From contig JAFGSI010000001.1 in assembly GCA_016934715.1 (NCBI GenBank), positions 1 through 44,174 on the forward strand: 44,174 nucleotides of DNA. Direction: 5' to 3'. Below, piece after piece: positions 6,427-43,406 of this stretch (the first letter of the stretch is position 1; every line of letters begins with the position of its first letter). This DNA comes from Anaerolineales bacterium (GTDB lineage: Bacteria > Chloroflexota > Anaerolineae > Anaerolineales > Villigracilaceae). Position numbers and translations under genes: made by a program. Below the pieces are notes generated by a model. That model had not been told where the DNA came from. It was given only the letters and a program-made list of their open reading frames with translations, and made no database searches.

Positions 6427-6936
6427 GGGAGTCTCCTGTTTGGATCGGTATGCCAGTTCTTCCCGCCAATCCACCAGCACAACCGTGGCTTCAGGCGATC
6501 TGAGTAACATTGTAATCGAAACCTGCCCCGCGCCGGAATGGTCTTGGGCGCAGCACTGCCCAAAATTGTTGAACGTGCCCCGTTTCGGGGGACGCCCGGC
6601 TGAGGGGATTGCGCGCATCTGGCCTCGCATTCTGCCGGGGAGAAGGACCCCAAGCTGGCCGGAAGCCCTGGCAGCCATCCTGGCGCTGCAGCGCCCCAAG
6701 GTAGAGTATAATGAATTTCGTCGGTCAAACAGCCCAAGGTTGGAGGACATTTCTGCCAGATGCGTTTCAAGACGCCTACAGCGTGACCTTTCGCAGCGCT
6801 GCCATTTCTACTCGCATACGCGAGATGACTCCCAAACCCACATACATCCTTATACCCGGCCATACCCTGGTGGATCGAGAATCCCATTCCTTGATCTGCT
6901 GGACCTGGCGACATGAAAGAATCGAAGGGGTGAACC
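6427..6936. other. 510-bp divergent intergenic region
   Basis: No supported gene. Short open frames here lack a ribosome site and family resemblance. The region carries a candidate promoter and a palindrome for the rightward stress-protein gene (6682-6712). The long leader (about 220 bases) from that promoter to the start at 6937 has no structure I can recognise. Confidence 0.6.
6682..6712 (+). promoter_or_regulatory. TATAAT box with upstream 14-bp palindrome
   Basis: A perfect -10 hexamer TATAAT is at 6707-6712. The place expected for the -35 box is covered by the perfect palindrome GGCGCTGCAGCGCC (6682-6695). No good -35 hexamer is seen, which fits a promoter controlled by a DNA-binding protein at the palindrome. 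It would drive the stress protein and cyclic glucan synthase. Confidence 0.45.
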
Positions 6937-29122: not shown

Positions 29123-30160
29123 ATGACCTTACACAGCGAAATCTTCGAACAACCCGAACGTCTGAAGAACCTGCTCACGGCCCAGCGCAAGACCGTTGCG
29201 GCGGTTGCGGCGGAAATCGAGCGGCGTCGCCCGGCCTATGTCTTTCTGGCCGCCCGCGGCACCTCGGATAATGCCGGCCGCTATGCCAATTACCTGTGGG
29301 GCGCCCGCAATGGCCTGCCGCTGGCCCTGGCGACGCCCTCCCTGTTCACCTTCTACCAGTCCCCGCCCCGGCTGCAGGGGGCCCTGGTGGTCGGCGTTTC
29401 GCAGTCGGGCCAGTCACCTGACATCGTCAGCGTTCTGGACGAGGGCCGCAAACAGGGTGCCCTGACCCTGGCGATCACCAATGCCCCGGCCTCGCCCCTG
29501 GCCAGGGCCGCCGACCTGGTCCTGGACATCCAGGCCGGGGAGGAAAAAGCCGTTGCAGCCACCAAGACCTACACCACCGAATTGATGGCCATCGCCATGC
29601 TCTCAGCCGCCCTGCACAACGACAGGACCGCCTGGCGCGAACTCGAACGGGTCCCGGGCTGGGTGCGGCAGGTGCTCAAGCACGACGCGCCGATTGCCCA
29701 AATGGTCGAGCGGTTCCGCTACATCGAGCAGTGCGTCGTGCTGGGGCGCGGCTTCAACTACGCCACCGCTTTCGAGTGGGCCCTGAAGCTCAAGGAACTG
29801 ACCTACGTCGTGGCCGAGCCCTACTCGTCGGCCGACTTCCAGCACGGGCCGATCGCCATGGTGGCGGGTGGCTTCCCGGTCATGGCCGTCGCCCCGCAGG
29901 GCCGGGTCTTCGAGTCGATGCTCGGCATGCTCCAGCGCCTGCGCAACGAGCACAACGCCGAACTGGTGGTCATCTCTGACGACCGGGGAGCCCTGTCGCT
30001 GGCCCAATCGCCCATCTCCCTGCCGGCCGGCATCCCCGAGTGGCTGACCCCGATCGCCAGCATCGTCGCCGGGCAGTTGTTCGCCTACCACCTGACCCGC
30101 GCCAAGGGTTACGACACCGAAAAACCGCGCAGCATCGGCAAGGTCACCGAAACCCATTGA
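29123..30160 (+). CDS. Double SIS-domain sugar-phosphate isomerase/deaminase (GlmS C-terminal-like)
   Basis: A 345-residue cytosolic protein equal to the isomerase half of GlmS, without the glutaminase domain. The start MTLHSEIF follows CAGAGGA. First SIS domain about 30-165, with ARGTSDNA and the phosphate loop SQSGQSPD; second about 200-335. The C terminus [18 protein letters not shown] resembles the GlmS end. Enzymes of this form are glucosamine-6-phosphate deaminases (NagB-II type) or fructosamine-phosphate deglycases. Facing a locus with GH18, ChbG, GH4 and a GlcNAc-type kinase, a glucosamine-6-phosphate deaminase role fits best. It is transcribed towards that locus from its own regulated-looking promoter. 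Confidence 0.85.
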
Positions 30161-30214
30161 CACCGGCAGGTCTGCACTGCGGGTGAGGCGGATCTTCCTT
30201 CCAGATCGTTAAAG

Positions 30215-30247
30215 TCCAGGCTGCAGGGACTACACCTGCAGCCTGGA
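30215..30247. terminator. 13-bp-stem hairpin between convergent genes
   Basis: TCCAGGCTGCAGG (30215-30227) and CCTGCAGCCTGGA (30235-30247) pair perfectly around a 7-base loop. It lies between the ends of the SIS gene (plus) and the deacetylase gene (minus). U-runs are poor on both sides, but the long stem makes a bidirectional terminator likely. Confidence 0.6.
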
Positions 30248-30281
30248 TTAACAAGGAGAAGATGGCCTGTCGAGCTGCTCT

Positions 30282-31100
30282 TCACAACCCGGCGTAGGAT
30301 ATCAACTGAACACCCCGGCGCAGCAAGGCGCTCTTGACCTCCCGATCCGTCAGGATGGCCAGTTCATGCTCCCGCTGGTGAGCATAATCCGACTCCCGGA
30401 CCAGCTCGTCACTGGAAAAACCGGGGTGGCACATCAACTCAGTCGTCCCGGGCGAAAGGTCTTCGATCAAGGCCAGCAGATTTTCTTTGGTCACCCCGGA
30501 ATCGTAGAAACGCGATAAGAAGGCCTGCGGCCTGAGCGGTTGGTATTCTTCCAGCAGGCGCGGGACGAACTCGTCCACCTCCGGGCATAGTTCGTCAGGA
30601 AAATCCACCGCGCCAGCGGCGGCCAGCGGATAGCGGATCGGGCAGCCGCAGTCATCGGCCAATTCGAGCATCGTCCGGAACAATTCCTCTGAAAAGTAAG
30701 AACAGTGGTGGTGAGAGTCAAGGTGGTCGGGCTCGCGCCCGGTGGACTGTTTGAACTTCTCGATCTGGGTTCGCCACTCCGCCCGGACCTCGCCTGGGTC
30801 GACCAGCAAAAGCCGCCTCGCCAGCAGATCGGGATCCGGGAAGCGGCCGTCCGCATCGACGACGCTGGCCAGCCCCTCCGGCGGGAGAACAGGATGCCCG
30901 AGGGTCAGCACCAGGTGCACCCCCAGTCCCAGGCGCGGCGTCCGCTGCATGGCTGCCCGCAAATCCTCTTCGACCCCCGGCAAGTTCATCATCGCCGAAG
31001 TCGAGGTGACGATGCCCCCCAGATGCGCCTCACGAATGCCGCTTGAAACCCCGGGCGTGCGCCCATAATCGTCGGCATTGACGATCAGGCGTATGCTCAC
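30282..31100 (-). CDS. chbG: ChbG/YdjC-type carbohydrate deacetylase
   Basis: A 272-residue cytosolic metal-dependent deacetylase of the ChbG/HpnK family. Motifs: NADDYG with Asp10-Asp11, GVHL with His62, DSHHH with His130, and MCHPG with His225. ChbG removes one acetyl group from N,N'-diacetylchitobiose or its 6-phosphate, a step needed before GH4 cleavage in E. coli. It starts with GTG overlapping the GH18 stop by four bases (GTGA), so it is translated with the GH18 gene. It is the last gene of the amino-sugar operon. Confidence 0.88.
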   Translation of the reverse strand: MSIRLIVNADDYGRTPGVSSGIREAHLGGIVTSTSAMMNLPGVEEDLRAAMQRTPRLGLGVHLVLTLGHPVLPPEGLASVVDADGRFPDPDLLARRLLLVDPGEVRAEWRTQIEKFKQSTGREPDHLDSHHHCSYFSEELFRTMLELADDCGCPIRYPLAAAGAVDFPDELCPEVDEFVPRLLEEYQPLRPQAFLSRFYDSGVTKENLLALIEDLSPGTTELMCHPGFSSDELVRESDYAHQREHELAILTDREVKSALLRRGVQLISYAGL

Positions 31101-32047
31101 GGCCGGTGTTCCTCGACGGTCTGGTAGATCGCCCGCAGCAGGGACAGATCACCGCCGGCATCATGCTCGAGGGCCCAGATCATGATTCCCGAGGCGCGCG
31201 CAAGGGCCAGTTCGGTCTTGGCCCGCATGGTGGGGATGCCGTTGTAGTTGATCGGCGTGCCGTAGTAATCGAACACATCGAGGGTGGCTGCCAGCGGATC
31301 CGCCTCGACAATCCGCCGGAAAGGAGCCTCGTTCGGACGAGCGTAGAAGGGCACGCCCAGGACAGCCTTCTCGGGCGGCAGGCCGCGCCCCAACCAATAT
31401 TCAAGCGAGTCGAGGGCGTACTGGTAAGAGGAATGCTGCTCGGCCTGGTTGTCATAGGCCATCAGGTTAACGAAGTCCATCAGGGGGAAGGATTCGGCCG
31501 GGATCCCATCGCCATAATATCCGAGGGCCACCACGGCAGCGGTGAGCAATTTCCCTTCCGGCAGGGCCAGGCGCAGTTCGGTCATCAGGGCCAGGAAATT
31601 CTGCGAGGACGGTCCCGGATCAGGATACTCCCAATCGATGTCGGCCCCATCCAGATCGTACTGCTCGACGATGGCGACCAGCCCGTCGACGAAGACGGCC
31701 CGCGTCTGCGGGTCGGCAGCCAATGCCTCAAACTGCTCATCCCAGCCCCAGCCGCCAACCGAGATCAGGACGCGTACACCATGCTCGTGCGCCCGGCTGA
31801 CGATCTGCTCGATCTTCCAGGGATTGTTGAGCGGGGCGAAGGTGCCGTCACGGTTGGGGATCAAAAAGGCATAATTGATGTGAGTCAGCATCTCGTAGGG
31901 GATCGCCGCCGGGACGATCGCGTCGGTGGCGTAGCCGATAATGCGAAAGGCGGGTTCGGGGGGCATGGCATCTCCTTGCGTCAGTGCACAACCGGCCAAC
32001 AGGACCAGCAGCAACACCGTGATTTTCGGTACGTTCCTACGCAGCAT
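31097..32047 (-). CDS. GH18 chitinase-like lipoprotein
   Basis: A 316-residue lipoprotein (VLLAGC, Cys20) with a single GH18 barrel. The catalytic motif is complete: D133-G-A-D136-I-D138-W-E140, with Glu140 the general acid, preceded by SVGGW (96-100). Later YDNQ and MIWALEHD fit the family. It should cleave chitin-like or GlcNAc-containing glycans outside the membrane and feed the importer. The short barrel without binding modules or a large insertion domain suggests an oligosaccharide- or peptidoglycan/glycoprotein-directed enzyme; this is inference. It starts 3 bases after the preceding gene's stop. Confidence 0.9.
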   Translation of the reverse strand: MLRRNVPKITVLLLVLLAGCALTQGDAMPPEPAFRIIGYATDAIVPAAIPYEMLTHINYAFLIPNRDGTFAPLNNPWKIEQIVSRAHEHGVRVLISVGGWGWDEQFEALAADPQTRAVFVDGLVAIVEQYDLDGADIDWEYPDPGPSSQNFLALMTELRLALPEGKLLTAAVVALGYYGDGIPAESFPLMDFVNLMAYDNQAEQHSSYQYALDSLEYWLGRGLPPEKAVLGVPFYARPNEAPFRRIVEADPLAATLDVFDYYGTPINYNGIPTMRAKTELALARASGIMIWALEHDAGGDLSLLRAIYQTVEEHRP

Positions 32048-32050
32048 CCA

Positions 32051-33268
32051 CTACCCCCTCAAGGTGAGGTTGAGCCGCTCAGCCAGGGGCACCAGGTGAT
32101 CCTGCAACAGGCTGGCAGACGAGACATTGCGGTTTTCCTGGGCCCGGCGCAGGATCGCTCCCAGTTCGAGCGAGATCTGGTGTTCGAGCCGCCGCCAGAG
32201 CGGGATATTGCGGAAGGAGCGCCCGTGATCGGCGGCCTGGTGCAGGGCTTTCTGCATCGGGTGGCCCTTGGAAAGGATCTCGTCGAGCGCCTGCCGGTTG
32301 GCGGGCATGCTGTGAACCTGCTTCGCCCAGCGCACCTGGGCCCGCTTGCCGGCCAGGAAGCGGATGAATTCAACCGCCGCACGCTCGCGCTCGGGATACC
32401 CTTGGGCGTGCTTCCAGACGATGAAATTGCCACCGCCGAACCAGGGGGTCTCGGTCAGGACTGCGAAGCCGATGTCGGAGCGGACCGCAGGATCGAGATC
32501 CCCATTGACAAAGTTGGTAGCGGCATAACGATTGTCGATCAGCAGGATGGCACTGCGCCCCCTGGTGAACAGGTCATAACAAGAGGCACGGTCCAATTGG
32601 GCAAAGGCCGGCGGCGTGGAGCGCAAAATATCGAGCCAGGTCTCCATGCCGGCCATGGCTGGTGGCTGGTCGAAAGCCACCCTGGCCCCGAGCGGATCGA
32701 CCAGCTCCCCACCCGCGCTCCAGACAAAAGAGGCCGCCATGTGCAGCAGGTCGGTGTGAGGAGGCGGGATGTAGGGGACCAGCCAGGGAATCTCGACCTG
32801 CGACTGGCGCAGTCTGAGGACCGTCTCACTGAGGGCTGCCTGGCTGCCGAAGGCGGTCGCCTCATCCAACCCGGCCTGCTGCAGCAGGGATTTGCGGTAA
32901 CATACCAGATAGACATAGCCAGTCCATGGGATCGACCAGATGCGCTCATCGTCCACCAGGCGGACGCTGTCCCAGGTCGGCTTGAGGAAGGCCTGCGCGC
33001 TCCCCATGGCTTCGATCTCGTCACGGCGGAAAGGCCGCAGGACATTCATGATCGCCAGGCTGCTGACCCAGCTGCCTCCAATATGCGAGATATCCGGACC
33101 GCGCCCGTGCGAGGCGATCTGGATCAACTCGGACCAGACCGTCCCCCAGGTCATCGGCTGAAGGTGCACCTTGACCTGATTCTGCTGTTCGAACTCGGCC
33201 GCCAGGGCAGCCAGTGTCCGGCTGTCGACCTCTGCATCCGGGATACAAGACATTTCAATTTCTACCAT
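32051..33268 (-). CDS. Family 1 sugar-binding protein lacking a signal peptide
   Basis: A 405-residue protein with the features of extracellular ABC solute-binding proteins (family 1). These include an early AEFEQQNQVKVHL segment, GPDISHIGGSW, RIWSIPWTGYVYLVCYRKSLL, and FIRFLAGKRAQVRWAKQVHSMPANRQ. It opens MVEIEMSC with no hydrophobic signal or lipobox; in-frame codons upstream reach a stop seven codons back, so no longer version exists. It is flanked by the kinase (31 bp) and GH18 (3 bp). Either it works in the cytosol, for example as a sugar sensor, or it has lost its export signal. A normal secreted binding lipoprotein is already encoded at 37889-39289. Confidence 0.85.
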   Translation of the reverse strand: MVEIEMSCIPDAEVDSRTLAALAAEFEQQNQVKVHLQPMTWGTVWSELIQIASHGRGPDISHIGGSWVSSLAIMNVLRPFRRDEIEAMGSAQAFLKPTWDSVRLVDDERIWSIPWTGYVYLVCYRKSLLQQAGLDEATAFGSQAALSETVLRLRQSQVEIPWLVPYIPPPHTDLLHMAASFVWSAGGELVDPLGARVAFDQPPAMAGMETWLDILRSTPPAFAQLDRASCYDLFTRGRSAILLIDNRYAATNFVNGDLDPAVRSDIGFAVLTETPWFGGGNFIVWKHAQGYPERERAAVEFIRFLAGKRAQVRWAKQVHSMPANRQALDEILSKGHPMQKALHQAADHGRSFRNIPLWRRLEHQISLELGAILRRAQENRNVSSASLLQDHLVPLAERLNLTLRG

Positions 33269-33299
33269 CAGATTTGCCTTTCTACTTCAGAGGCGCGCT

Positions 33300-34316
33300 T
33301 CAACCCTGGGAGTGCAACGAAGCCTGCTGCTGCTTCTCCAGGTGCAGCAATGAATCGGTCATCGCCTGGCGGATATGCCCTCCGGCGGACAATCCGCCCA
33401 TTTCCATCCCGATGATCACGGAGCCGATCACCGGCGGGACCGACAGGCGGACCAGGCGCGCGCCCGGTGCCAGTTCGGCGATCGTCTCCCGCAGCGGTTC
33501 GATCAGCAAGGCTCCGCCGTTGAACATGCCGCCGGCCAGGACGACCTCAAATACCTCGGCCTCGAAATTCAACTGGCGGATCACGCCCCAGGCCATCTCG
33601 CCAAGTTCGCGACCCGCCCAACGCAGCAGATCGATCGCCACCGGATCGCCGCTCTCCGCAACTTCGAAAACTACTGGCGCGGCGGCCGCCCCGATGGTAT
33701 AGGTGCCCTTGCAGTACCCTTCGAGCAGGTCCTCCACATCGCGGGCACCGGCATAATCGACCAGGGCCCCGGTCAGGGTCGTCTCGGGCAGGCGCTTGAT
33801 CCAGGCATGATTGACCAGGTGCATGGCCCGGAAGACCAGCTCGGACCCCCCGGCTGCTTCGCCGGTTGTGATCCCGTACCCGGATACCCGCCCCTCGCGT
33901 TTGTGCTCCCGGTCCCAGCCGTGGCAGTTGCAGCCGGTGCCGGAGACAACCACGATCCCCCAGCCGGCCTGGGCCCCGGCAACCAGGCCCGGGATGGCAT
34001 CATTGACCAGGCGCATGGGCGCCGCCAGGTCGAGACCCTCCAGGACTTCCAGCATCGGCTGGCGCTCGGAGGGCCAGTCGTAGCCGGCGATCCCGAACCC
34101 GGCCCCGCCAATATCCTTTATTTTTAGCCCGCCTCCCCGCAGGGCCTGACCGATCGAGCACTCCAGGGCCTCGCGCAGGCCGTCAAACCCAACGTTCTGA
34201 TGATTTCCCGGGCCGGCCTCGCCGAACCCGACCCCCACGCCGTCCTCGTCAGCGATCATGGCGTGGGTCTTGGTAGCCCCAACGTCCACTCCCAAGAAAT
34301 AGCGCATCGGTTCCAT
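33300..34316 (-). CDS. BadF/BadG-type sugar kinase (N-acetylglucosamine kinase-like)
   Basis: A 338-residue ASKHA-fold kinase of the BadF/BadG/BcrA/BcrD ATPase family, the family of eukaryotic-type GlcNAc kinase. Phosphate-1 motif GVDVGATKTHAMI near the N terminus, phosphate-2 VVVSGTGCNCHG, and a late adenosine region VVLAGGMFNGG. It should phosphorylate an imported amino sugar with ATP. A second ATG three codons in (MRYFLG) is an alternative start; neither has a strong ribosome site. Because GH4 enzymes of this type act on 6-phospho-disaccharides and no PTS is present, this kinase might phosphorylate the disaccharide itself; that is a hypothesis. Confidence 0.87.
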   Translation of the reverse strand: MEPMRYFLGVDVGATKTHAMIADEDGVGVGFGEAGPGNHQNVGFDGLREALECSIGQALRGGGLKIKDIGGAGFGIAGYDWPSERQPMLEVLEGLDLAAPMRLVNDAIPGLVAGAQAGWGIVVVSGTGCNCHGWDREHKREGRVSGYGITTGEAAGGSELVFRAMHLVNHAWIKRLPETTLTGALVDYAGARDVEDLLEGYCKGTYTIGAAAAPVVFEVAESGDPVAIDLLRWAGRELGEMAWGVIRQLNFEAEVFEVVLAGGMFNGGALLIEPLRETIAELAPGARLVRLSVPPVIGSVIIGMEMGGLSAGGHIRQAMTDSLLHLEKQQQASLHSQG

Positions 34317-34321
34317 TTCTG

Positions 34322-34350
34322 TTGTGCCAGCAGATGTTCTGCTGGCACAA
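34322..34350 (-). repeat. 12-bp-arm hairpin between GH4 and kinase genes
   Basis: TTGTGCCAGCAG (34322-34333) and CTGCTGGCACAA (34339-34350) pair perfectly with a 5-base loop. It fills most of the 50-bp gap inside the operon and ends 5 bases before the kinase start, where it could limit initiation. No U-run follows, so RNA processing, stabilisation or translational control is likelier than full termination. Confidence 0.65.
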
Positions 34351-34366
34351 CGGGGGGTCTCGTATT

Positions 34367-35659
34367 CTACTTCCAGAACTGTGGCAGGTAGTCCCGGTGC
34401 GTGCTGAGCATGTCATCCAGCACGGCCGGGATCCTGTCGGCGGTCGGCCCGAGTGGGTGCGCCAGCAGAGCCTGGAAGGCCGCCTCCCGATCCCCATGGA
34501 CGGCCGCCGCGACCGTCAAGACCTCGTAGGCCTTCACCTGGGCGATCAAGCCGAAGCAGGCGGGCGGCAAGGGGTCCGCCGGAAGGGGGTGGATTCCCTG
34601 ACGATCGACCCTGGCAGGCATCTCCAGGACCCAGTCGGCCGGCCAGTCGCTGACGGCGCCCTTGTTGGGGGTGTTGACGATATGGGTCTCTCCCAGATTG
34701 TTGTAATGCGCATTGAGCAGCTGGGTCGCCACGGTCGAGTAATAGGCGCCGCCGCGTTTCATCAGGTCTTCGGGCGGCTCCTGCAGGTTCGGATCAGCGT
34801 ACTCCTGCAGCAGATCCTTCTCGACCTCGATGACCTCGTCGGCGCGCGACGGCGGCCACTTCTCCTGGGCCGCTAGTTTCCGGTCGGTGTGGTAGAAATA
34901 CTGCAGGTAGTAATTGGGGATCATGCGCAGGACCTCGATCGTGCGCGGGTCCCACTCGGGATGCTCATCGGCCTGCAACGAAGCGATGAAGCGGTCAATG
35001 ACCTGCGGCCAGATATCTTCGCCGTCGATCGTGAAACCCCGGTGCCAGGAGAGGTGATTGAGACCCAATGTCTGCAGTTCAGCCCGCTCGGGTTCGACCT
35101 GCTTCCCGGTTGCCTGCTCCCATTCCTTCAGGATCATCATCTTGGCCGTGATCGGCACATTACAGACCCCGACCGACAGGACGTCGGGAGCATATCCGGC
35201 CAGCGCCTGGGTCACCAGGCCGGCTGGATTGGTAAAGTTGACCAGCATCGCCCCGGGTGCCAGGTCGCGCATGTCCTTGGCGATCCCAAGAATGACCGGA
35301 ATGGTGCGCAGCGCCTTGGCCATCCCGCCAACGCCGGTGGTTTCCTGCCCGATGAGGTTGTGGCGCTTGCCCAGGTATTCATCACGGCGACGGGCTTCCA
35401 TCTGCCCGACGCGCAATTGCGTCGTAACATAGGAAGCCCCTTCCACCGCCCGGCGCTGGTCGGTGGTGAGCACCACCTTGAAGGGGTCGCCCTGATGGGC
35501 AACCATGCGCTGGGCGAATCCGCCGACGATGTCCAGACGTTCCCGGTCGATGTCCATCAACCAGAGTTCGTCCAGCGGGAATTTTTCTACCCGGGCCAGA
35601 AAGCCGTTGACGAGTTCAGGTGTATAGGTCGAACCGCCTCCAAAGACCGCGACTTTCAT
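34367..35659 (-). CDS. GH4 6-phospho-glycosidase, ChbF/CelF-like
   Basis: A 430-residue NAD- and Mn-dependent GH4 hydrolase. Dinucleotide motif VFGGGSTYTPEL near the N terminus, GQETTGVGG (104-112), the metal Cys166 in CNVP, and His202 in LNHLSW. It tracks E. coli ChbF through VTTQLRVGQ, LRTIPVI, NFTNPAG and RGGAYYS. Such enzymes cleave 6-phospho-beta-glucosides or mono-deacetylated chitobiose-6-phosphate by an oxidation-elimination mechanism. With ChbG and GH18 genes in the same operon, a chitobiose-type substrate is favoured over cellobiose; the sequence alone does not settle it. It begins 11 bases after the second permease. Confidence 0.92.
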   Translation of the reverse strand: MKVAVFGGGSTYTPELVNGFLARVEKFPLDELWLMDIDRERLDIVGGFAQRMVAHQGDPFKVVLTTDQRRAVEGASYVTTQLRVGQMEARRRDEYLGKRHNLIGQETTGVGGMAKALRTIPVILGIAKDMRDLAPGAMLVNFTNPAGLVTQALAGYAPDVLSVGVCNVPITAKMMILKEWEQATGKQVEPERAELQTLGLNHLSWHRGFTIDGEDIWPQVIDRFIASLQADEHPEWDPRTIEVLRMIPNYYLQYFYHTDRKLAAQEKWPPSRADEVIEVEKDLLQEYADPNLQEPPEDLMKRGGAYYSTVATQLLNAHYNNLGETHIVNTPNKGAVSDWPADWVLEMPARVDRQGIHPLPADPLPPACFGLIAQVKAYEVLTVAAAVHGDREAAFQALLAHPLGPTADRIPAVLDDMLSTHRDYLPQFWK

Positions 35660-35670
35660 CCACTGCCATC

Positions 35671-36801
35671 CTACTTTTCGACACCGGTGATGACGATGCC
35701 CTGGACGAAGAAACGCTGGGCAGCGAAGAACAGGATCACCGGGAGCAGGAGCGTCATCAAGGCCCCGGCCTGGATGTACTGCGGCTGCTGCCCGTAGATG
35801 CCATTGAAGCGCGCCAGGGCGACCGAGATCGGCTGGCTATCCATCTTGGTGGACAGGTAGATGAGAGGGCCGAAATAGTCGTTCCAGGCCCAGACAACGT
35901 GGAAGATCGTGACCGCCACGATGGCTGGATAGGACTGCGGGATGATCACCGACCACAGGACCCGGAATGGGCTGGCGCCGTCCATGTAAGCCGCCTCGTC
36001 CAGTTCGCGCGGCAGGGTCATGAAATACTGGCGCAGCAGGAAGGTATCGTAGGCATTGGCAAAGAAGGACGGGACGATCAGCGGCAGCCAGGTGCCGACC
36101 CATCCGATCTGGCTGAAGAACGTAAATGTAGGGATGATCGTCACTGCGCCTGGCAGGAAGATCGTCGAGATCAACACGATGAACAGGAAATCACGACCCG
36201 GGAAGCGGAAGCGGGAAAAGCCAAAGGCCACCACGATGCACGAGACCAGGATGCCAATGGTGGTCGTGAAGGCATAGAAGAAGGTATTCCACAGCATGCG
36301 CGGATAGTTGATCAGTTCCCAGACATCGGTGTAGTTCTGCCAGGTGGGCGAGATCTCCCAACCGCGCTCGAGACCCTTATAATATCCGGTCCACATAAAT
36401 GGCCCGGCAGCGGGGTCCTGCGGGTCGAGGAAGACCGAGGCACTGTTATAGCCTTTGAGCAGGGCCAGATTCTGGATCTCGCCATCGATCGGGACCATGT
36501 ACATATCCAGATCCCTGCCAACGTAATCATTCATATCGATGATGACATCGGACATCGTTCCGCCCAGATCCATCTGGTAGGTGTAGGTCCCCAGATCCTC
36601 GCCCTCATAGGTGTACTGTGCCGGGGCGGCAGGCCAGAACGGCGCGCCGAGAATGGTGATCTGGGTCTGGGTCTTCAGCGAGGTCAGGATCATGTAAAGG
36701 AACGGCATCAGGAAGATCGCCAGGACCGCCGCCGTCACAGTTGTGACGAAAGTCGCGTTCAACCCTTTCTTCAGCTTGGTTTTACGGAGGACAGCATCCA
36801 T
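35671..36801 (-). CDS. ABC sugar permease, MalG type, with large external insertion
   Basis: A 376-residue inner-membrane permease; typical MalG/UgpE-type partners have about 275-285. The extra 100 or so residues lie between the first and second helices (about 50-160), a soluble Asp/Tyr-rich loop predicted outside the membrane. The EAA loop that docks the ATPase is intact (ELDEAAYMDGASPFRVLW). The C-terminal end FFVQGIVITGVEK is typical. It pairs with the permease 16 bases upstream. Insertions of this kind occur in MalF (P2 loop) but are unusual in the MalG partner; the loop may contact the binding protein. Confidence 0.93.
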   Translation of the reverse strand: MDAVLRKTKLKKGLNATFVTTVTAAVLAIFLMPFLYMILTSLKTQTQITILGAPFWPAAPAQYTYEGEDLGTYTYQMDLGGTMSDVIIDMNDYVGRDLDMYMVPIDGEIQNLALLKGYNSASVFLDPQDPAAGPFMWTGYYKGLERGWEISPTWQNYTDVWELINYPRMLWNTFFYAFTTTIGILVSCIVVAFGFSRFRFPGRDFLFIVLISTIFLPGAVTIIPTFTFFSQIGWVGTWLPLIVPSFFANAYDTFLLRQYFMTLPRELDEAAYMDGASPFRVLWSVIIPQSYPAIVAVTIFHVVWAWNDYFGPLIYLSTKMDSQPISVALARFNGIYGQQPQYIQAGALMTLLLPVILFFAAQRFFVQGIVITGVEK

Positions 36802-36817
36802 CGATTACCTCTCTTCT

Positions 36818-37816
36818 CTAGCCTTTATCGCTGGCGTAATAGACCCAGTAGCGAGCCGTGGCGAACATGACGACCGTCACTACCAGGATTACCAGGAACA
36901 GGATCCAGGCGAGGGTCGAACCATAAGACATGTTCTGGTTGGTGAAGAACGTCTTGTACAGGTACAGGTTGTAGAACATGGTCGCACCGCCTGGCCGCCC
37001 GGTGCCCGCGTTGATGACCAGTGGCACCAGGAAATACTGGAACAGACCGACCACGCTCAGGACCAGGTTGTAGAAAATGACCGGCGAGATCATCGGGAAG
37101 GTGACGTTCCAGAAGGTGGCGAGCTTGCCGGCGCCATCCACTTCGGCAGCATCGTAGAGGTCGGTCGGGACCCCCTGGATGCCAGCCAGCATGGTCAGCA
37201 TGGCGTTGCCGATCCCCCAGATCCCCATGATCACATAGGTGGGATAGACCCAGTTGATGTCATTGGCCCAACCAGGTGTATTTTCCTTGGGAATGCCCAG
37301 TGCGATCAGTGTGCGGTTAACCCAGCCCGTCTCCGGGTTGAGGATGCCGCCCCACAGGAATACGCTGGCGACGAAGGGGATGATGTAGGGCATGTAAAAC
37401 ATGGAACGGAAGAATGATTGCCCCTTCAGGTGCTTGTTGTTCATCATGAGCGCCAGTCCCAGCGGCAGAAGGATCCCGACCGGCAGCGCGATCAGACCGA
37501 AACGGATCGTGATCCACAGTGACCCGGGGGTCGAATTCGGCCGCATGTTCCAGACCTGCGGATCCCCGAACAGCGTTTCGTAGTTATCGAATCCCACAAA
37601 TTGCGGAGGGTTCAACACACCATCCGTGATCTTGATGTTCATGAAGGAGAAGATCAGGGTGGCGATCATCGGGATCAGCGTGAAGGCCAGAAAGCCAAGG
37701 ATCCATGGGCTCAGGTAGAGCAGCCCGTTACGATACTCCTGCTTCGCCAACGGGGTCAGATGGCGAATGGACTTGAGAGAAGGTAGTTTTGGCAGGCCGC
37801 GGACAAGTTCTTCCAT
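36818..37816 (-). CDS. ABC sugar permease, MalF/UgpA type
   Basis: A 332-residue inner-membrane permease with six or seven helices. The EAA loop reads DLYDAAEVDGAGKLATFW. The first helix region (LYLSPWILGFLAF) is typical of the family. AAGGAG precedes the start. It follows the binding-protein gene across a 72-bp gap holding a strong hairpin and lies directly before the second permease. No ATPase gene is present, so a shared MsmK/UgpC-type ATPase encoded elsewhere is expected. Confidence 0.94.
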   Translation of the reverse strand: MEELVRGLPKLPSLKSIRHLTPLAKQEYRNGLLYLSPWILGFLAFTLIPMIATLIFSFMNIKITDGVLNPPQFVGFDNYETLFGDPQVWNMRPNSTPGSLWITIRFGLIALPVGILLPLGLALMMNNKHLKGQSFFRSMFYMPYIIPFVASVFLWGGILNPETGWVNRTLIALGIPKENTPGWANDINWVYPTYVIMGIWGIGNAMLTMLAGIQGVPTDLYDAAEVDGAGKLATFWNVTFPMISPVIFYNLVLSVVGLFQYFLVPLVINAGTGRPGGATMFYNLYLYKTFFTNQNMSYGSTLAWILFLVILVVTVVMFATARYWVYYASDKG

Positions 37817-37843
37817 GGCAGCGCTCCTTTATCAGAGTGATGC

Positions 37844-37871
37844 GGGCGGGCCAGCAAGTGCTGGCCCGCCC
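37844..37871 (-). repeat. 13-bp-stem intercistronic hairpin after the binding-protein gene
   Basis: GGGCGGGCCAGCA (37844-37856) and TGCTGGCCCGCCC (37859-37871) are perfect complements with two bases between, a very stable GC-rich stem. No U-run follows on the minus strand. Position and form match the hairpins after malE-type genes that protect the binding-protein mRNA and lower permease output. Function is inferred. Confidence 0.75.
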
Positions 37872-37888
37872 AGGTACAGCAAAATACG

Positions 37889-39289
37889 TTACTTGTTGAA
37901 GATGACCGTCAGGTCAGCTTCGAGGGTCGCAATCTCGGTCGCGAGATTGAGGCCTTCCGTGTTGTTCATCAGGTCACCAAAGGTCTGGATGCGGGCCCAA
38001 CCCTCGTTCCAGTTGGGCATATAGCCTTCGGCGCTCGGAACATCCGGGTATGCCAATCCAGCGAGGATGGTGTCCCAGGTGGTGACGAACGGGTAGTTCG
38101 CACCCGTCGAATCGAGGTACGGCTGCTGGTAATCAGGCAGGGACGGGAAACCGCCGTAAGCGGCAGCCAGGTCACCGTGGCCAACAACCAGATACTCGGT
38201 ACCCACAGGGCCAATCAGGAAGGCCAGAACTTCAAAGGCCTCAGCCGGATGGGCACTGCCCTTCCAGGCGCGGAAGGTGTCGGCGTCGACGCGGCTGTGA
38301 ACCTGGCCGTCAGCTCCGACCGGGATCGCGCCGAACTGGAATTCGTTGCCAGCGGAAGCGAAATCACCCAGGCAGCAGGTGTACCACAGGTTGGTGATGG
38401 TCATGGCAATCTTGCCGCTGTTGAAGGTGTTGCCGGAGCCGAACTCAGGGCTGCCGGCGACCGCGCCATTGGGCATGAAGGGCTGATTGCCCCAGATGCC
38501 ATCATAGTACCATTCCCAGGCATCTTTCCAGGCGTCGGGGATCGCGGTCTCGTAGCTGCCCGCGGAGCCCGTGTAGTAGGACGGGGTCGCATGGAAGGCA
38601 CCAATGTAGGACGGATGGCCGGACCAGGTCGGGTGGAAACCGTACTGCACGATCGCGTTGCGATCGAAACCTTCCTGGGTGGCGTTCAGGCCGTTGGCAT
38701 CGATGGTCAGCAGGCGGGCGACTTCCGTGAAAGCGTCGTAGTCCCATGTGACCGAGGCGCCATCGGGCATTACATAGGCCTCACCGTACTCAGCCGGCGG
38801 GTAGTTCAGGCCAGCCTCGTCAAACATGGCCGGGATGTAGAAGATCGCGGCCGGGAAGACCAGGAAGGGCAGACCGAGCTGGCCCTCGTCGCTAATGTAC
38901 ATGTCGATCAGAGCCGGGTCATATTCGCTGGTGTCGAAATCATCCATGTAGGGGCTCAGTTCAAGCCACTGGCCGAAGAAGGCGTTCGAACCAGCCCAAC
39001 CCACCGGGCCGATAACGTCGGGGCCTTCGCCAGCCGCGATCTGGGTCGCCAGGGTGTCGCGAGCGCTGTCGTAGGGGACGACTTCCAGGATCAGTTCGAT
39101 GTTGTCGTGCGTGGCATTGAACTCGTCCACCAGAGCCTGCTCGACCTCAACCTGCGCCGGATCGGTACCGGTGCCCAGGCCGACAAACCAGCGGATCTGG
39201 ACGGGCCCACCACCGCCGCCGCCGCAGGACGTGAGAACCATCGCGGAGGCGACCACTAGGGCCATCAAAACGTACAGGGTCTTTTTCAT
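37889..39289 (-). CDS. ABC sugar solute-binding lipoprotein (family 1)
   Basis: A 466-residue binding lipoprotein. The start MKKTLYVL at 39289 follows GAGGAG; the signal ends in VLTSC (Cys22) and a poly-Gly linker. Family 1 features include an early VEVEQALVDEFNATHDNIELILEV-type segment, GEGPDVIGPVGWAG, and the aromatic-rich cleft WYTCCLGDF and NLWYT. It should capture an oligosaccharide for the two permeases that follow. A 70-bp gap with a 10-bp tandem repeat separates it from the LacI gene upstream. It is likely the most highly expressed gene of the operon because of the hairpin behind it. Confidence 0.93.
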   Translation of the reverse strand: MKKTLYVLMALVVASAMVLTSCGGGGGGPVQIRWFVGLGTGTDPAQVEVEQALVDEFNATHDNIELILEVVPYDSARDTLATQIAAGEGPDVIGPVGWAGSNAFFGQWLELSPYMDDFDTSEYDPALIDMYISDEGQLGLPFLVFPAAIFYIPAMFDEAGLNYPPAEYGEAYVMPDGASVTWDYDAFTEVARLLTIDANGLNATQEGFDRNAIVQYGFHPTWSGHPSYIGAFHATPSYYTGSAGSYETAIPDAWKDAWEWYYDGIWGNQPFMPNGAVAGSPEFGSGNTFNSGKIAMTITNLWYTCCLGDFASAGNEFQFGAIPVGADGQVHSRVDADTFRAWKGSAHPAEAFEVLAFLIGPVGTEYLVVGHGDLAAAYGGFPSLPDYQQPYLDSTGANYPFVTTWDTILAGLAYPDVPSAEGYMPNWNEGWARIQTFGDLMNNTEGLNLATEIATLEADLTVIFNK

Positions 39290-39328
39290 GGTAATTCTTC
39301 TCCTCGAAATTTTGTCTTGAAGGATTGG

Positions 39329-39348
39329 ACGAACGTATACGAACGTAT
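39329..39348 (-). promoter_or_regulatory. Tandem 10-bp repeat before the binding-protein gene
   Basis: ACGAACGTAT occurs twice head to tail (39329-39338 and 39339-39348); the junction forms the palindrome CGTATACG (39334-39341). It is 40-60 bases before the start at 39289, in the gap after the LacI gene. It differs from the LacI-gene operator palindrome, so it may be a site for another regulator. No clear promoter hexamers were found beside it. Confidence 0.4.
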
Positions 39349-39359
39349 TGGGCTTTCGA

Positions 39360-40418
39360 TCATCGTTTCTGGGCAATCACCTCCTTTGGCATGGATTTTC
39401 TCGCAGAACAGCCACACGACTGCCGAATGACAACTTCCGTGGGTAACAAGATCTTCTGCTCTGCGGGTTCACCGAGGATCATGTTGAGGATCTGCTGGCC
39501 TGCAGCCCGGCCGACAGCCTCGGTCGGAGCCCGTACGGTCGTCAGCGGGAGCGGCAGGATGCAGGAAAAGTGCTGGTCATCGAAGCCAACCACCGAGACC
39601 TGGTCCGGAACGCTCATGCCGACATCCTGCAGAGCCCGGATCACACCCAGGGCCGAATCGTCGTCGCTGGCGAAGACGGCATCGAAAACGGGGTGGTTGT
39701 TGGAGAGAAAGGTTTTCATTTCGCGGTAGGTGACCTCGCGGTCGAATTCGCCGTTGACCACCAATTTGGGATCGTAGGCGATCCCGTGGGCTTCCAGAGC
39801 ATCTTTGTAGCCCATCTCGCGCCAGTGCGAGTCTTCGTGGTCAACCAGCCCGCGGGTGAAAACAATATGCCGCCTCCCATGGACTTCGATCAGGTGATCG
39901 ACGATCCTGCGTGAGGCGGCCTTATTTTCAACAGTCACATAGGGGATATTAAGATGCGGCGGCGGCGTGCGGTGGACCAAGACCATCGGAAAGTTCATCC
40001 GGTGCCACTGGGCCAGCTGATCTTCTTTAACAGCATCGGCAAAGATCACCACGCCATCGGTGTTGTGCGGCCCGACCGGAGGGGGATACTCCTTGCGCAG
40101 GTCCGCCCGATAGGTCGCCACCAGCAGGTTGTGATGGTTCTCGGCCACCACCTTCTCCAGCCCGCTCAACAGGGGGGAGAAAAAATCGTAGTTGATCGTC
40201 GTCAGCAGCAGGCCGATCGAACGTGTTCTGCGGGTGGCCAGGTGACGGGCAGCGGCATGGGGAACGTAGTTAAGTTCCGTCATGACCTTGCTGATCCGCT
40301 CTGCCACCTCCGCCGAGACCGGCGCATTACGGTTAATAAAACGACTGACCGTCGCCACAGACACATCTGCCTGGCGAGCGACATCACGGATGGTAATCGA
40401 GTGCGATTTTCGGGTCAT
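39360..40418 (-). CDS. LacI-family transcriptional regulator
   Basis: A 352-residue repressor-type regulator of the full family length. The N-terminal helix-turn-helix and hinge are textbook: TIRDVARQADVSVATVSRFIN, then NYVPHAAARHLATRRT. The periplasmic-binding-protein-like sensor domain follows, with FASDDDSALGVIRAL and VVGFDD motifs. The C-terminal RQSCGCS is seen in a subset of the family. Its promoter overlaps two 12-bp palindromes that are very likely its own operators. It should sense a sugar or sugar phosphate and control the transporter and enzyme genes downstream. Confidence 0.94.
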   Translation of the reverse strand: MTRKSHSITIRDVARQADVSVATVSRFINRNAPVSAEVAERISKVMTELNYVPHAAARHLATRRTRSIGLLLTTINYDFFSPLLSGLEKVVAENHHNLLVATYRADLRKEYPPPVGPHNTDGVVIFADAVKEDQLAQWHRMNFPMVLVHRTPPPHLNIPYVTVENKAASRRIVDHLIEVHGRRHIVFTRGLVDHEDSHWREMGYKDALEAHGIAYDPKLVVNGEFDREVTYREMKTFLSNNHPVFDAVFASDDDSALGVIRALQDVGMSVPDQVSVVGFDDQHFSCILPLPLTTVRAPTEAVGRAAGQQILNMILGEPAEQKILLPTEVVIRQSCGCSARKSMPKEVIAQKR

Positions 40419-40429
40419 GGGGCGATTGT

Positions 40430-40454
40430 GGAACCGGTTACAGTAACCGGTTAC
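40430..40454 (-). promoter_or_regulatory. Twin LacI-type operator palindromes
   Basis: GTAACCGGTTAC (40443-40454) is a perfect palindrome with a central CG, the hallmark of LacI-family sites. GGAACCGGTTAC (40430-40441) is a near copy one base away. They abut the -10 box and cover the expected transcription start and leader of the LacI gene, so binding would block initiation. Confidence 0.7.
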
Positions 40455-40605: not shown

Positions 40606-41946
40606 TTACGGAGCGATCACATACAAGGTCAGCGACTGCCCCGGCAGGACCAGGAGACCGTCGGCCGGCAAGGGCTGGAGCCCCAACCCTTCGGCGTTGT
40701 GGCTGGCGTCGAACAGCCAGACCTCGGCCTCGGCCGGCGTCCAGCCTGACACCTGCAGCGGCAGGCGCTGCTCGGAATCAGACAGGTTGACGACCATCAC
40801 CGTCAATGCCCCGTCGGCGCGCAGGGCGGCATAGATCGATACCTCGGCGATCGCGGAAGCGGCATACACCCGCCGGGTACCGAAATACTGGTACATCTGG
40901 TAGACATAGTAGATGGGACGCGGGCCGGTGGTGTAGATCATGCCCAGGCCGCCCTGACTGGAGGTCGAGGTCAGCACCCACTGGTTGACCATGAAAACGC
41001 CCTCGTCGATCAACCGCCCAAGCACATCCGCCCACCAGATGGCATTGAAGAACGAGTCGGGAGTCGCCTCGCCGCCAACGGCCCGGGTGTAGTGCGAGCC
41101 GGCCTCGGTGACGGCGATCGGAAGGTCGCGCCCGGTGGTGGTGTGGATCAAGGCGCGCAGATAGCGTACGGTCGCAGTCCACTCGGGCGTGTCCCGGCGC
41201 AGTTCGGCGATGGTGGCGTTCGGCCCGGTCATCTGGAGCGGGAACGGGTAACGGTGGTAGGAAACGATGTCCACCAGGTCGCCATTGGCGAGCAGGAACT
41301 CGGTCATCCAGTCGCGCCCGGCGTTGTCCTTGGGGTTGGTCTCGAAATTGGAGCTGTACGTGCCGTGCAGTTCCGGACCGATCAACTGGATGTCTCGATC
41401 GACATCCAGCATCGCCTCGGCGATCGCCCGCCACTCCTGGTTGAAGCGCACCGTATCGTATTCGACGTTCGGCCGGCCGTCGTACAGGTCTGGCTCGTTG
41501 CCAATGCTCCAGTAGACCACCCCGTAATCCTGTTCCTGGTTGACGTAACGGACCAGTTCGGCAGCCGCCTCGGGCGTGCCGTTCAGCAGACGTACGCTGA
41601 TGGTTGGGATGGCGCCAATCTGTTCGCAGAAGGACAGAAACTGGTCGACCTGGTATTCCCGGACATCGTTGACATCGCCCCATTCTCCTCCCGGCCAGCG
41701 CAGGACGGTGACATGCGAGTTGAGGGCATAGTCCATCTGCCCGGCCGGGACGGCCGTCCAGGGTCCGTAGTTCGAGCCAAAGATGTAAGGGCTGACCGGA
41801 CCAAGCTCCTGCTCCGGGTCAACCCACAGGACACCGGGCACCGGTGTCGGGACGACCGTCGGGGTCGGGATGGGCGTTGGAGCCGCCCCCCCACAAGCAG
41901 AGAGCAGCACGGCAAAGATCAAGACCAGTGTGATTCGAATCCGCAT
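40606..41946 (-). CDS. Clan GH-A glycoside hydrolase lipoprotein (second of a tandem pair)
   Basis: A 446-residue lipoprotein (VLLSAC, Cys18) with a Pro/Thr linker. The catalytic barrel shows clan GH-A features: LRWPGGEWGD (82-91), WSIGNEPD with acid/base Glu151, and VTEAGSH with nucleophile Glu281. The C-terminal 90 residues form a beta-sandwich (VMVVNLSD and onward). The pattern is nearest to GH51/GH39/GH44-type enzymes, but I cannot fix the family. It should act outside the membrane on plant-type or microbial glycans. It is 134 bp downstream of a close paralogue. A near-operator sequence (41960-41971) sits just upstream, suggesting control by the neighbouring LacI protein. Confidence 0.85.
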   Translation of the reverse strand: MRIRITLVLIFAVLLSACGGAAPTPIPTPTVVPTPVPGVLWVDPEQELGPVSPYIFGSNYGPWTAVPAGQMDYALNSHVTVLRWPGGEWGDVNDVREYQVDQFLSFCEQIGAIPTISVRLLNGTPEAAAELVRYVNQEQDYGVVYWSIGNEPDLYDGRPNVEYDTVRFNQEWRAIAEAMLDVDRDIQLIGPELHGTYSSNFETNPKDNAGRDWMTEFLLANGDLVDIVSYHRYPFPLQMTGPNATIAELRRDTPEWTATVRYLRALIHTTTGRDLPIAVTEAGSHYTRAVGGEATPDSFFNAIWWADVLGRLIDEGVFMVNQWVLTSTSSQGGLGMIYTTGPRPIYYVYQMYQYFGTRRVYAASAIAEVSIYAALRADGALTVMVVNLSDSEQRLPLQVSGWTPAEAEVWLFDASHNAEGLGLQPLPADGLLVLPGQSLTLYVIAP

Positions 41947-42080: not shown

Positions 42081-43406
42081 TCACTCCTCGAAGACGAACA
42101 GGGTGGCCGACTGCGGCGGCAGGATCAGGGTCCCATCGGCCGGCAGGGGCTGGAGCCCCAACCCCTCTGCGTTGTGAGACGCGTCCAAGAGCCAGACCTC
42201 GGCCTCAACCGGGGTCCGGCCCGCCACCCGCAGCGGGACGCTTTGCTCGCGGTCGGTCAGGTTGATCACCATGATCGTCAGGGTCCCGTCGTTGCGCAGG
42301 GCAGCGTAGACCGTCACATCGCTGATCCCCGACGAGGCCTGGACCAGCCGGCTCCCGAAGTGGCTGTAGAGCTGAAAGACATACAGCGTCGGACGGACCT
42401 GGTTCCCGTAGATCAGACCCAGGCCGGTGCTGCGCTGCGACAGGACCCACTGGTTGACCATCAGGACCCGCTGCTGACCGAGCTGGCCGAGCACGTCGGC
42501 GTACCAGATGGCGTTGTAGAACGAGTCGGGGGTTGTGTCACCGCCCATCACACCGGTCGGCGAGGAGTTGACCTCCGTGAAGGCGATCGGGAGGTCGCGC
42601 CCGGTGAGCTCCCAGATCAGGCCGCGCAGGTAGGTCACCAGATCGGTCCACTCGCGGGTGTTGAGGCGCAGCTCTTCAAAGGTGACCGCCTGCCCGGCCG
42701 CCCGGTAGAGTGGGTAGCGGTGGACGGTGACCACGTCGACCAGGTCACCGTTGGCGATCAGGAATTCGGTCATCCAGTCACGGCCGGCCGAATCCTTGGG
42801 CGTGGTGTCTGGACTGGTCCCCCACTGGTGCAGTTCGGGGCCCATGATCTGGATGTCGGGGTCGACCGCCAGCATCGCCTCAGCGATCGACCGCCACTCC
42901 CGATTGAAGCGCAGCGTGTCATACGGTTCGCCGGTCTGAGACTCGTAGAGGGTCGGCTCGTTGCCAATCGACCAGAAGACCACGCCATAGTCCTTTTCGA
43001 GGTTGGTGTAGCGGACCAGTTCGGCGGCCGCCTCGGGGGTCCCGCCCAGCAGGCGCACACTGATGGTCGGGATGGCGTTCATCTGTTCACAGAAGGACAG
43101 AAACTGGTCGACCTGGAAGAACTGGATATCGACCACGTCACCCCAGGCTCCGCCGGGAAAGCGCAGGGCGGTCACGCCAGCGTCCAGGGCCACCGGCATC
43201 ATCTCCATCGGGACGGCGTGCATCGGTCCGTAGTTCGAGCCGTAAAGGTACGGGCTGATCTCGCCCAGCTCGCGTCCCGGGTCGACGTACAGAACCCCAG
43301 GCATGGGCGTCGGAACGACAGTCGAGGTCGGCAGGGAGGTCGGCGACGGGTTGCAGGCAGCCAGCAAGACCAGCAAGGATGGGAACAGAGCAAGACGGGA
43401 TTTCAT
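42081..43406 (-). CDS. Clan GH-A glycoside hydrolase lipoprotein (first of a tandem pair)
   Basis: A 441-residue lipoprotein (LLAAC, Cys18) starting after AAAAGGAG. It is collinear with the next gene along its whole length: LRFPGGAWGD (81-90), acid/base Glu150 in WSIGNEP, nucleophile Glu278 in FTEVNS, and a near-identical end (DASHNAEGLGLQPLPADG). The barrel and C-terminal beta-sandwich are the same. The nucleophile loop differs (EVNSSPTG against EAGSHYTR), as does the loop after GPELH, so substrate range may have shifted since duplication. Secreted and membrane-anchored; the exact GH family is not settled. Confidence 0.85.
   Translation of the reverse strand: MKSRLALFPSLLVLLAACNPSPTSLPTSTVVPTPMPGVLYVDPGRELGEISPYLYGSNYGPMHAVPMEMMPVALDAGVTALRFPGGAWGDVVDIQFFQVDQFLSFCEQMNAIPTISVRLLGGTPEAAAELVRYTNLEKDYGVVFWSIGNEPTLYESQTGEPYDTLRFNREWRSIAEAMLAVDPDIQIMGPELHQWGTSPDTTPKDSAGRDWMTEFLIANGDLVDVVTVHRYPLYRAAGQAVTFEELRLNTREWTDLVTYLRGLIWELTGRDLPIAFTEVNSSPTGVMGGDTTPDSFYNAIWYADVLGQLGQQRVLMVNQWVLSQRSTGLGLIYGNQVRPTLYVFQLYSHFGSRLVQASSGISDVTVYAALRNDGTLTIMVINLTDREQSVPLRVAGRTPVEAEVWLLDASHNAEGLGLQPLPADGTLILPPQSATLFVFEE

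Follow-up and report, generated by a model that had tools for sequence, protein, structure and literature searches.

A candidate chitin-disaccharide operon in an Anaerolineales bacterium, with an ATP-dependent kinase that may do the work of a phosphotransferase system

Among the systems closest to the locus considered here is the chbBCARFG operon of Escherichia coli, which encodes the transporter ChbBCA of the phosphotransferase system (PTS) together with the GH4 enzyme ChbF and with ChbG. The locus occupies positions 30282-40418, on the minus strand, of a stretch of 44,174 nucleotides from an Anaerolineales bacterium of the Chloroflexota (assembly GCA_016934715.1, contig JAFGSI010000001.1, positions 1 to 44,174), called the window below. 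Like chbBCARFG, it unites the ChbF and ChbG families in one operon (37% and 32% identical to the E. coli proteins), has the same nine residues in the -1 subsite of its GH4 enzyme, and has been given the same proposed order of deacetylation before cleavage. Unlike chbBCARFG, it has no PTS transporter, and neither HPr nor EIIC turns up in the assembly. In their place stand ATP-binding cassette (ABC) uptake and a kinase that would take its phosphate from ATP, and a LacI-type regulator and a lipoprotein GH18 distinguish the locus further from the E. coli operon with its regulator ChbR.

Other described systems resemble the locus in single parts. The NagK/NagB-II pair of Shewanella forms a monosaccharide route; the window likewise has a BadF-family kinase and a SIS-type deaminase candidate that match the corresponding models (NagK_SO3507, 76 bits; NagB_SO3506, 234 bits), but both scores fall far under the cut-offs (370 and 430), and no NagA was found in the assembly. 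The ROK kinase BglK of Klebsiella accepts disaccharides, and reportedly, in work of Thompson and colleagues from 2002, uses ATP to convert an intact beta-glucoside to the 6-phospho-beta-glucoside; the window kinase is instead one of the BadF/NAGK type, linked to a GH4 gene and an ABC importer. With MurK and human NAGK it shares the fold and the catalytic Asp, but its loop near the anomeric oxygen is altered, and it falls in a separate clade. Finally, the ChiR operon of Thermotoga maritima (chiEFG, cbsA, nagAB) combines ABC import of chitobiose with genes of N-acetylglucosamine (GlcNAc) catabolism in one regulon (PMC3750489); there, unlike in the window, CbsA cuts free chitobiose, and a GH4 enzyme, a kinase and ChbG are not named in the available part of that paper.

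Genes of the locus and the proposed route

A first-pass annotation of the window had placed ChbG-like and ChbF-like genes in a shared operon with GH18, an ABC importer and a BadF-type kinase, and the place, strand and family of each are borne out. Open reading frames and family matches give nine genes on the minus strand, encoding in order LacI, a first solute-binding protein (SBP1), two permeases, GH4, the BadF-family kinase, a second solute-binding protein (SBP2), GH18 and ChbG, spaced 3 to 72 bases apart and with a four-base overlap of GH18 and ChbG; the gene list is confirmed as an operon. Matches were obtained to Glyco_hydro_4 (8e-52, C-terminal domain 4e-50), BcrAD_BadFG (2e-25), Glyco_hydro_18 (3e-40), YdjC (3e-61) and, in a gene facing the operon, SIS (3e-30), as well as to SBP_bac_8 on the second solute-binding protein gene, SBP_bac_1, LacI and, twice, BPD_transp_1. 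The ten window genes scanned include no PTS gene, as the annotation had said, and the statement extends to the assembly (4.09 Mb, 88 contigs, 97.76% complete) for HPr and PTS_EIIC, the two PTS families searched there, each with zero matches. The same zeros bear on a chitobiose PTS elsewhere in the genome, one of the findings that the annotation had named as refuting its proposal.

These genes suggest an operon for chitin disaccharides whose kinase, drawing on ATP, stands in for the PTS, a reading to which we give a probability of about 0.52; its substrate, the order of its steps and every activity in it we infer. The tethered GH18 lipoprotein (31097-32047, with a DGADIDWE motif that we take to be catalytic) would cut chitin to N,N'-diacetylchitobiose. 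This would be imported unphosphorylated by SBP1 (37889-39289, starting at Met30 of the longest frame; SBP_bac_1 1e-17, with an N-terminal lipobox seen by eye) and by a MalF-type (36818-37816; BPD_transp_1 7.9e-17) and a MalG-type permease (35671-36801; 4.3e-16), which are 34% and, over 224 columns, 40% identical to permeases of the Paenibacillus locus L122. The BadF-family kinase (33300-34316) would put a phosphate on O6 of the non-reducing sugar, which ChbG (30282-31100) would deacetylate before or after the kinase has acted, and the GH4 enzyme (34367-35659), needing both the 6-phosphate and the free amine, would split the product into glucosamine-6-phosphate and GlcNAc. The SIS-domain protein (29123-30160, plus strand, converging on the operon) would deaminate glucosamine-6-phosphate to fructose-6-phosphate, while LacI (39360-40418; LacI helix-turn-helix 2.5e-17, Peripla_BP_3 3.8e-33), encoded by the first gene, would control the operon through two palindromes at its promoter. 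The scheme would amount to a chb route whose PTS has given way to ABC import and a dedicated kinase, and it is partly supported: the genes, the GH4 pocket, the lack of HPr and EIIC in the assembly, the conserved gene pairing and the separate kinase clade are all observed.

The GH4 pocket and a kinase clade tied to it

Solved relatives and subsite residues assign the GH4 protein to the 6-phospho-beta-glucosidase type. The nearest solved structures are the 6-phospho-beta-glucosidases 1s6y (4e-103) and 5c3m (1e-102), followed by BglT (1up4, 1up6 and 1up7; 4e-75), and identity to the GH4 of the Paenibacillus locus L122 reaches 45%. According to the available part of PMC13197890, the nine -1 subsite residues of ChbF are fully conserved with a Thermotoga enzyme bound to glucose-6-phosphate. 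The window GH4 holds all nine (R90, E106, T107, N144, C166, N167, H202, Y251 and R272), the CN motif and the two arginines of 6-phospho-beta-glucosidases included. The full set recurs in 28 of 31 GH4 proteins aligned to E. coli ChbF (the window's counted), with eight residues in L067 and five in two enzymes of a CH type, one from the window's own genome (contig C64) and one at L033, in which the four missing residues include both arginines. Charge, and loss from the CH-type enzymes, suggest which of the nine hold the phosphate. Since two other GH4 enzymes, GlvA and BglT, depend on a 6-phosphate in their substrate, as far as the accessible text of PMC10628242 reports, and the pocket is complete, the window GH4 very probably does so as well.

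What, then, could supply the phosphate? The kinase encoded next to GH4 has the fold, the DxGxTK phosphate motif and the catalytic Asp (Asp106, human Asp107) of BadF/NAGK sugar kinases. Its AlphaFold model (mean pLDDT 96.2, a per-residue confidence score) superposes over some 300 residues on a Sulfolobus hexokinase (Z 32.1), on MurK (8zo3, Z 31.5) and on human NAGK (2ch6, Z 28.8), and 8zo3, a kinase of N-acetylmuramic acid (MurNAc) and GlcNAc, is also the best solved match by sequence; the NagK_SO3507 equivalog scores 75.8 bits, below its cut-off of 370. Identity to the kinase of L122 is 33%. In a tree of 133 rows, with the loop columns excluded, one branch (approximate likelihood-ratio support, SH-aLRT, 99) contains all 92 distinct GH4-linked kinases and 7 unlinked ones, from which the remaining 30 unlinked rows and all four solved kinases are excluded; this was a quick tree without bootstrap, and the exact place of three solved kinases, which sit on long branches, is unsure. 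The linked clade is thus separate from NAGK and MurK.

The tree bears on a reading of the locus as salvage of peptidoglycan or host glycans, whereby the kinase would phosphorylate a fragment containing MurNAc or GlcNAc and GH4 would release the phosphorylated sugar. The sequence match to 8zo3 speaks for it, as does the use of muramyl dipeptide by human NAGK reported in the available part of PMC10465942, but the window kinase falls outside the 8zo3 branch, no etherase or amidase was found among the ten genes scanned, and GH18 and ChbG indicate chitin. Such salvage is therefore very improbable.

The linked kinases also differ at the sugar-binding loop. Of the four solved kinases compared, three carry a loop of the WGxxxGDEGS kind, in our reading a mark of GlcNAc kinases; in the window kinase the loop is instead GYGITTGEAAGG. 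At the position of Ser155 in human NAGK, 96 of 97 linked kinases carry Gly, whereas Ser occupies it in 30 of 37 unlinked ones and in all 4 solved ones. Trp146 is retained in 1/97 linked, 29/37 unlinked and 3/4 solved kinases, and Glu153 in 1/97, 20/37 and 3/4, against a catalytic Asp107 present in all 138 kinases compared. The 37 unlinked kinases comprise 34 stretches of our own choosing and three from other loci, and some stretches stop at contig ends, so that unlinked status is not certain for every one of them; SIS genes are seen at 2 of the 34, and NagA or NagB none by the queries used. Asp141 of MurK binds the C1 hydroxyl (PMC10465942, available part) and by numbering equals human NAGK Asp152. 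Trp146 and Ser155 flank this residue, where a second sugar would sit. Accommodating a glycosyl group on O1 would require just such a change, though this is a correlation and not a proof. It is a tentative proposal, with somewhat less than an even chance, that a BadF/NAGK clade seen at loci of Anaerolineae, Bipolaricaulota and Paenibacillaceae became a 6-kinase of disaccharides (beta-glycosides) by opening the anomeric-oxygen loop and replaces PTS genes beside GH4; the window, whose operon contains ChbG and whose genome shows no NagA, would then represent the chitobiose form.

The annotation had proposed a comparison of gene order in related genomes, and there a kinase beside GH4 recurs widely, PTS genes rarely. 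Across 150 class-level genomes, 39 of 52 GH4 matches of at least 320 bits have an A2-type kinase within 3 kb, and for four of the other 13 (G108, G056, G128 and G029:C213) the contig is short or ends there. Conversely, GH4 is near 40 of 48 kinases of at least 290 bits and 3 of 26 at 195-290 bits (rows under 195 bits left out), a split that is partly built in because the profile was made from linked kinases. Among 80 named GH4 loci, Paenibacillus and Cohnella among those with the kinase, a BadF gene lies within 4.5 kb in 64 and PTS genes in 3, sought with E. coli ChbA, ChbB and ChbC and with Klebsiella EIIB, EIIC and TreB-like queries, which distant PTS families can escape. Of these PTS loci, those of Klebsiella (L144) and Citrobacter (L127) have no kinase, and the third, L131, has both; its BadF gene branches with MurK, apart from the linked clade. 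Chance clustering of GH4 and kinase is ruled out by these counts. The annotation's view of the kinase as the source of the 6-phosphate is to this extent upheld, by the GH4 pocket, the lack of HPr and PTS_EIIC, and a kinase clade tied to GH4; its suggestion that the intact disaccharide is phosphorylated gains support as well but stays in doubt, given the bypass through GH20 discussed below.

Substrate and rival readings

The case for chitobiose starts from ChbG. The active-site residues D10, D11, H61 and H125 of ChbG (PMC9402603, available part) correspond to D10, D11, H62 and H130 of the window protein; H206 and R223, also given there for the Klebsiella enzyme, fail to map by number onto E. 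coli ChbG, although a CHP stretch and an Arg align by eye. The PRK02134 model scores 186 bits, below its cut-off of 227. ChbG is reported to be active on free and on 6-phosphorylated chitobiose (PMC9402603, same portion), and E. coli ChbF to need prior action of ChbG (PMC13197890 and PMC12791066, citing Walter et al. 2021, in the parts available). The converging SIS protein has 345 amino acids from the ATG at 29123, with two SIS stretches. Scores make no choice among models (240 bits for GlmS PRK00331, cut-off 381; 234 for NagB_SO3506, cut-off 430; 230 for glmS TIGR01135, cut-off 418); we call it NagB-II-like because the glutaminase half is missing. The annotation had it as a GlmS-like protein that could complete the path to fructose-6-phosphate: the gene does converge on the operon, and completion for both sugars is in question with no NagA found. 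With a ChbG close to that of E. coli, a GH18 and a NagB-II-like SIS gene all clustered with the GH4-kinase pair, chitobiose is the likely substrate.

The same mechanism could nevertheless serve another beta-linked disaccharide, cellobiose-, mannobiose- or N-acetyllactosamine-like, with ChbG, GH18 and SIS as add-ons for mixed glycans. Relatives lend this some weight. Among 36 close relatives, 17 have a YdjC gene near GH4, whose best profile is the window's type in 4 and mixed in 13 (those of L032 and L036, of this mixed kind, are 23-24% identical to the window ChbG), and 19 have none nearby, some of them on short contigs; in the most distant group YdjC is unseen at 32 of 33 loci. Near GH4 in the 36, SIS genes number 7 (three weak, 48 to 75 bits), GH18 6, GH20 3 and GH94 2 (L076 and L079), and GH94, GH130, GH2 or GH3 genes accompany GH4 at other loci. 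The closest named relative, L071, has GH4, kinase, a GH18-YdjC frame, a GH1 beta-glucosidase and SIS on one strand; here the GH18-YdjC frame and SIS count towards chitobiose, and the GH1 gene towards another sugar. One operator match in the window's genome lies upstream of a GH94-GH3 pair. The kinase-GH4 pair thus looks like a general device of which chitobiose is one use, and the annotation's chitobiose pathway, favoured by ChbG, GH18 and SIS in the cluster, is weakened by a pair often without YdjC and by only 4/36 close relatives with the window's type. Still, an N-acetylated amino sugar fits best with the combination of E. coli-like ChbG, GH18 and NagB-II-like gene joined to the pair in the window, which makes another sugar unlikely there, though to be taken seriously.

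In L071 itself, a single frame (5323-6549) joins a shortened GH18 (profile positions 2-140 of 317) to a YdjC domain without its first 42 profile positions, either a deletion fusion or an assembly error.

Could the kinase act only after cleavage? As an ordinary GlcNAc or glucosamine kinase, it would follow a chitobiose cleavage by cytosolic GH20 or by a GH4 tolerant of the free sugar, with ChbG replacing NagA on GlcNAc-6-phosphate and SIS leading to fructose-6-phosphate. The genome has two GH20 genes whose domains start at residues 2 and 5, so that there is no room for a signal peptide; these predicted cytosolic enzymes could cut free chitobiose and bypass the kinase, but neither lies within the operon. 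The nearest solved kinases use GlcNAc, MurNAc or glucose, no NagA was found in the assembly, and a sister kinase on contig C64, 54% identical to the window's and of the same clade, adjoins a CH-type GH4 without the phosphate-type pocket, an arrangement that fits a kinase of released monosaccharides. On such a route, however, the full 6-phospho pocket of the window GH4 would be needless, and the linked kinases differ at the sugar-binding loop from most unlinked and solved ones. Action on the monosaccharide is accordingly rather unlikely. The C64 genes form a second cassette (L155), with GH4, YdjC and BadF genes in a row and a GH4 that is 28% identical to the window's.

Several of these observations count against the route by way of an intact, phosphorylated chitobiose: the frequent absence of YdjC beside the pair, the cytosolic GH20 enzymes, the monosaccharide substrates of the solved kinases, the C64 kinase and, at L071, the loss of the very 42 positions in which D10 and D11 lie. 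To these are added further points. No curated NCBIfam model calls the GH4 a 6-phospho-beta-glucosidase, the best being an alpha-galactosidase subfamily (198 bits, cut-off 486). At the loop position, L142 is linked and has Ser, and L183 and L184, unlinked and outside the clade, have Gly155; inside the clade, L189 and L190 have Ser, with GH4 and kinase on different contigs. The loop change, common to a single clade, amounts to about one event, and the kinase profile and the unlinked sample were of our own choosing. Neither kinase nor PTS is near GH4 at 14 of the 80 named loci, at least 7 of which have over 4.5 kb of sequence to either side. HPr exceeds its cut-off in 20 of 36 GH4-holding genomes tested, so that the pair also occurs where PTS parts are present; Thermanaerothrix daxensis has four matches, and several matches, being located within frames of 680 to 880 amino acids, may belong to fused proteins. 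A rule of PTS-free genomes is accordingly rejected, and only the contrast of kinase and PTS at the locus level stands.

The GlcNAc half of the disaccharide likewise has no classical route, because no NagA-type deacetylase was found in the assembly. Released GlcNAc would have to be either deacetylated by another enzyme, possibly ChbG itself, or used for cell wall synthesis. NagA exceeds its cut-off in 26 of 44 GH4-holding genomes, a list in which at least three pairs (G071/G159, G050/G166 and G032/G161) give identical rows and look like the same genome twice. The idea that reliance on ChbG goes with a loss of NagA was considered, and no link appears, with YdjC in 14 of 18 genomes without NagA and 23 of 26 with it.

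Regulation, surroundings and wider meaning

The ATPase subunit of the importer is absent from the operon by family scan of its genes. Nor does the GH4-kinase locus always include the ABC importer: window-like permeases were seen near GH4 in 9 of the 36 close relatives and, in the most distant group, which is mainly Bacillota, at 14 of 33 loci. SBP2 (32051-33268), a member of the solute-binding-protein family by its SBP_bac_8 match and judged by eye to have no signal peptide, may be a cytosolic sugar sensor. Genes of its kind (also L207:4446-5648) match in 12 of the 150 class-level genomes, the window's own counted, and one more in that genome adjoins purine genes, judged by eye. A protein at the SBP2 position of L039 (c22) was rejected as a relative, being an unrelated membrane protein by eye and not joined by phmmer.

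Upstream of lacI, the promoter scan gives a sigma-70-like site, TTGACT-17-CATAAT (40483-40455, minus strand), and a pattern search finds two operator-like AACCGGTT palindromes (40443-40454 and 40430-40441) between it and the start codon. As the scan returned 3 sites for 2.9 expected, the argument for this promoter is its position, not number. Across the genome, GTAACCGGTTNC has 9 matches at 7 places, two of these in the window, against 2 control matches; of the five other places (four stretches examined), only one is at a sugar gene, GH94, so that a regulon remains a lead. In this case (L206, contig C59, site 3585) the palindrome copy ends about 70 bases before the GH94 gene, which a GH3 gene follows.

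Hairpins mark two gaps on the minus strand, one of 14 pairs between GH4 and kinase (34317-34366; -26 kcal/mol, z -7.6) and one of 12 pairs between SBP1 and MalF (37817-37888; -40.1 kcal/mol, z -5.7), perhaps for unequal expression of SBP1 and permeases and of GH4 and kinase. The gap between the convergent ChbG and SIS genes (30161-30281; -55.2 kcal/mol, z -4.8) contains a long inverted repeat. Directly upstream of the operon, tandem lipoprotein-like genes (40606-41946 and 42081-43406), the first preceded by an ACCGGT half-site, belong to a family with a GH79 match below threshold and with members at other GH4 loci (L037, L040 and L045). Farther off, an open frame of 2901 amino acids (7906-16611) with a GH94-like part (profile match 12748-13497) is presumably a protein of the cyclic beta-glucan synthase type.

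The annotation had thought that this rewired route may be undescribed. The pair is widespread and not peculiar to the window. Should the kinase activity prove real, the literature searched suggests that it would be a first for the BadF/NAGK family. That literature has no mention of a cellobiose, chitobiose, diacetylchitobiose or gentiobiose kinase, which is weak evidence of absence with subscription journals thinly covered. General models name kinases of the window's type BadF ATPase or place them weakly with N-acetylglucosamine kinase. If the proposal is true, bacteria that import disaccharides by ABC transporters could still use PTS-type 6-phospho-glycosidases by means of a kinase clade, and many GH4-kinase gene pairs would gain a function, whether or not their genomes encode a PTS at another place. 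The clade would then show in nature a shift of a sugar kinase from monosaccharide to disaccharide.

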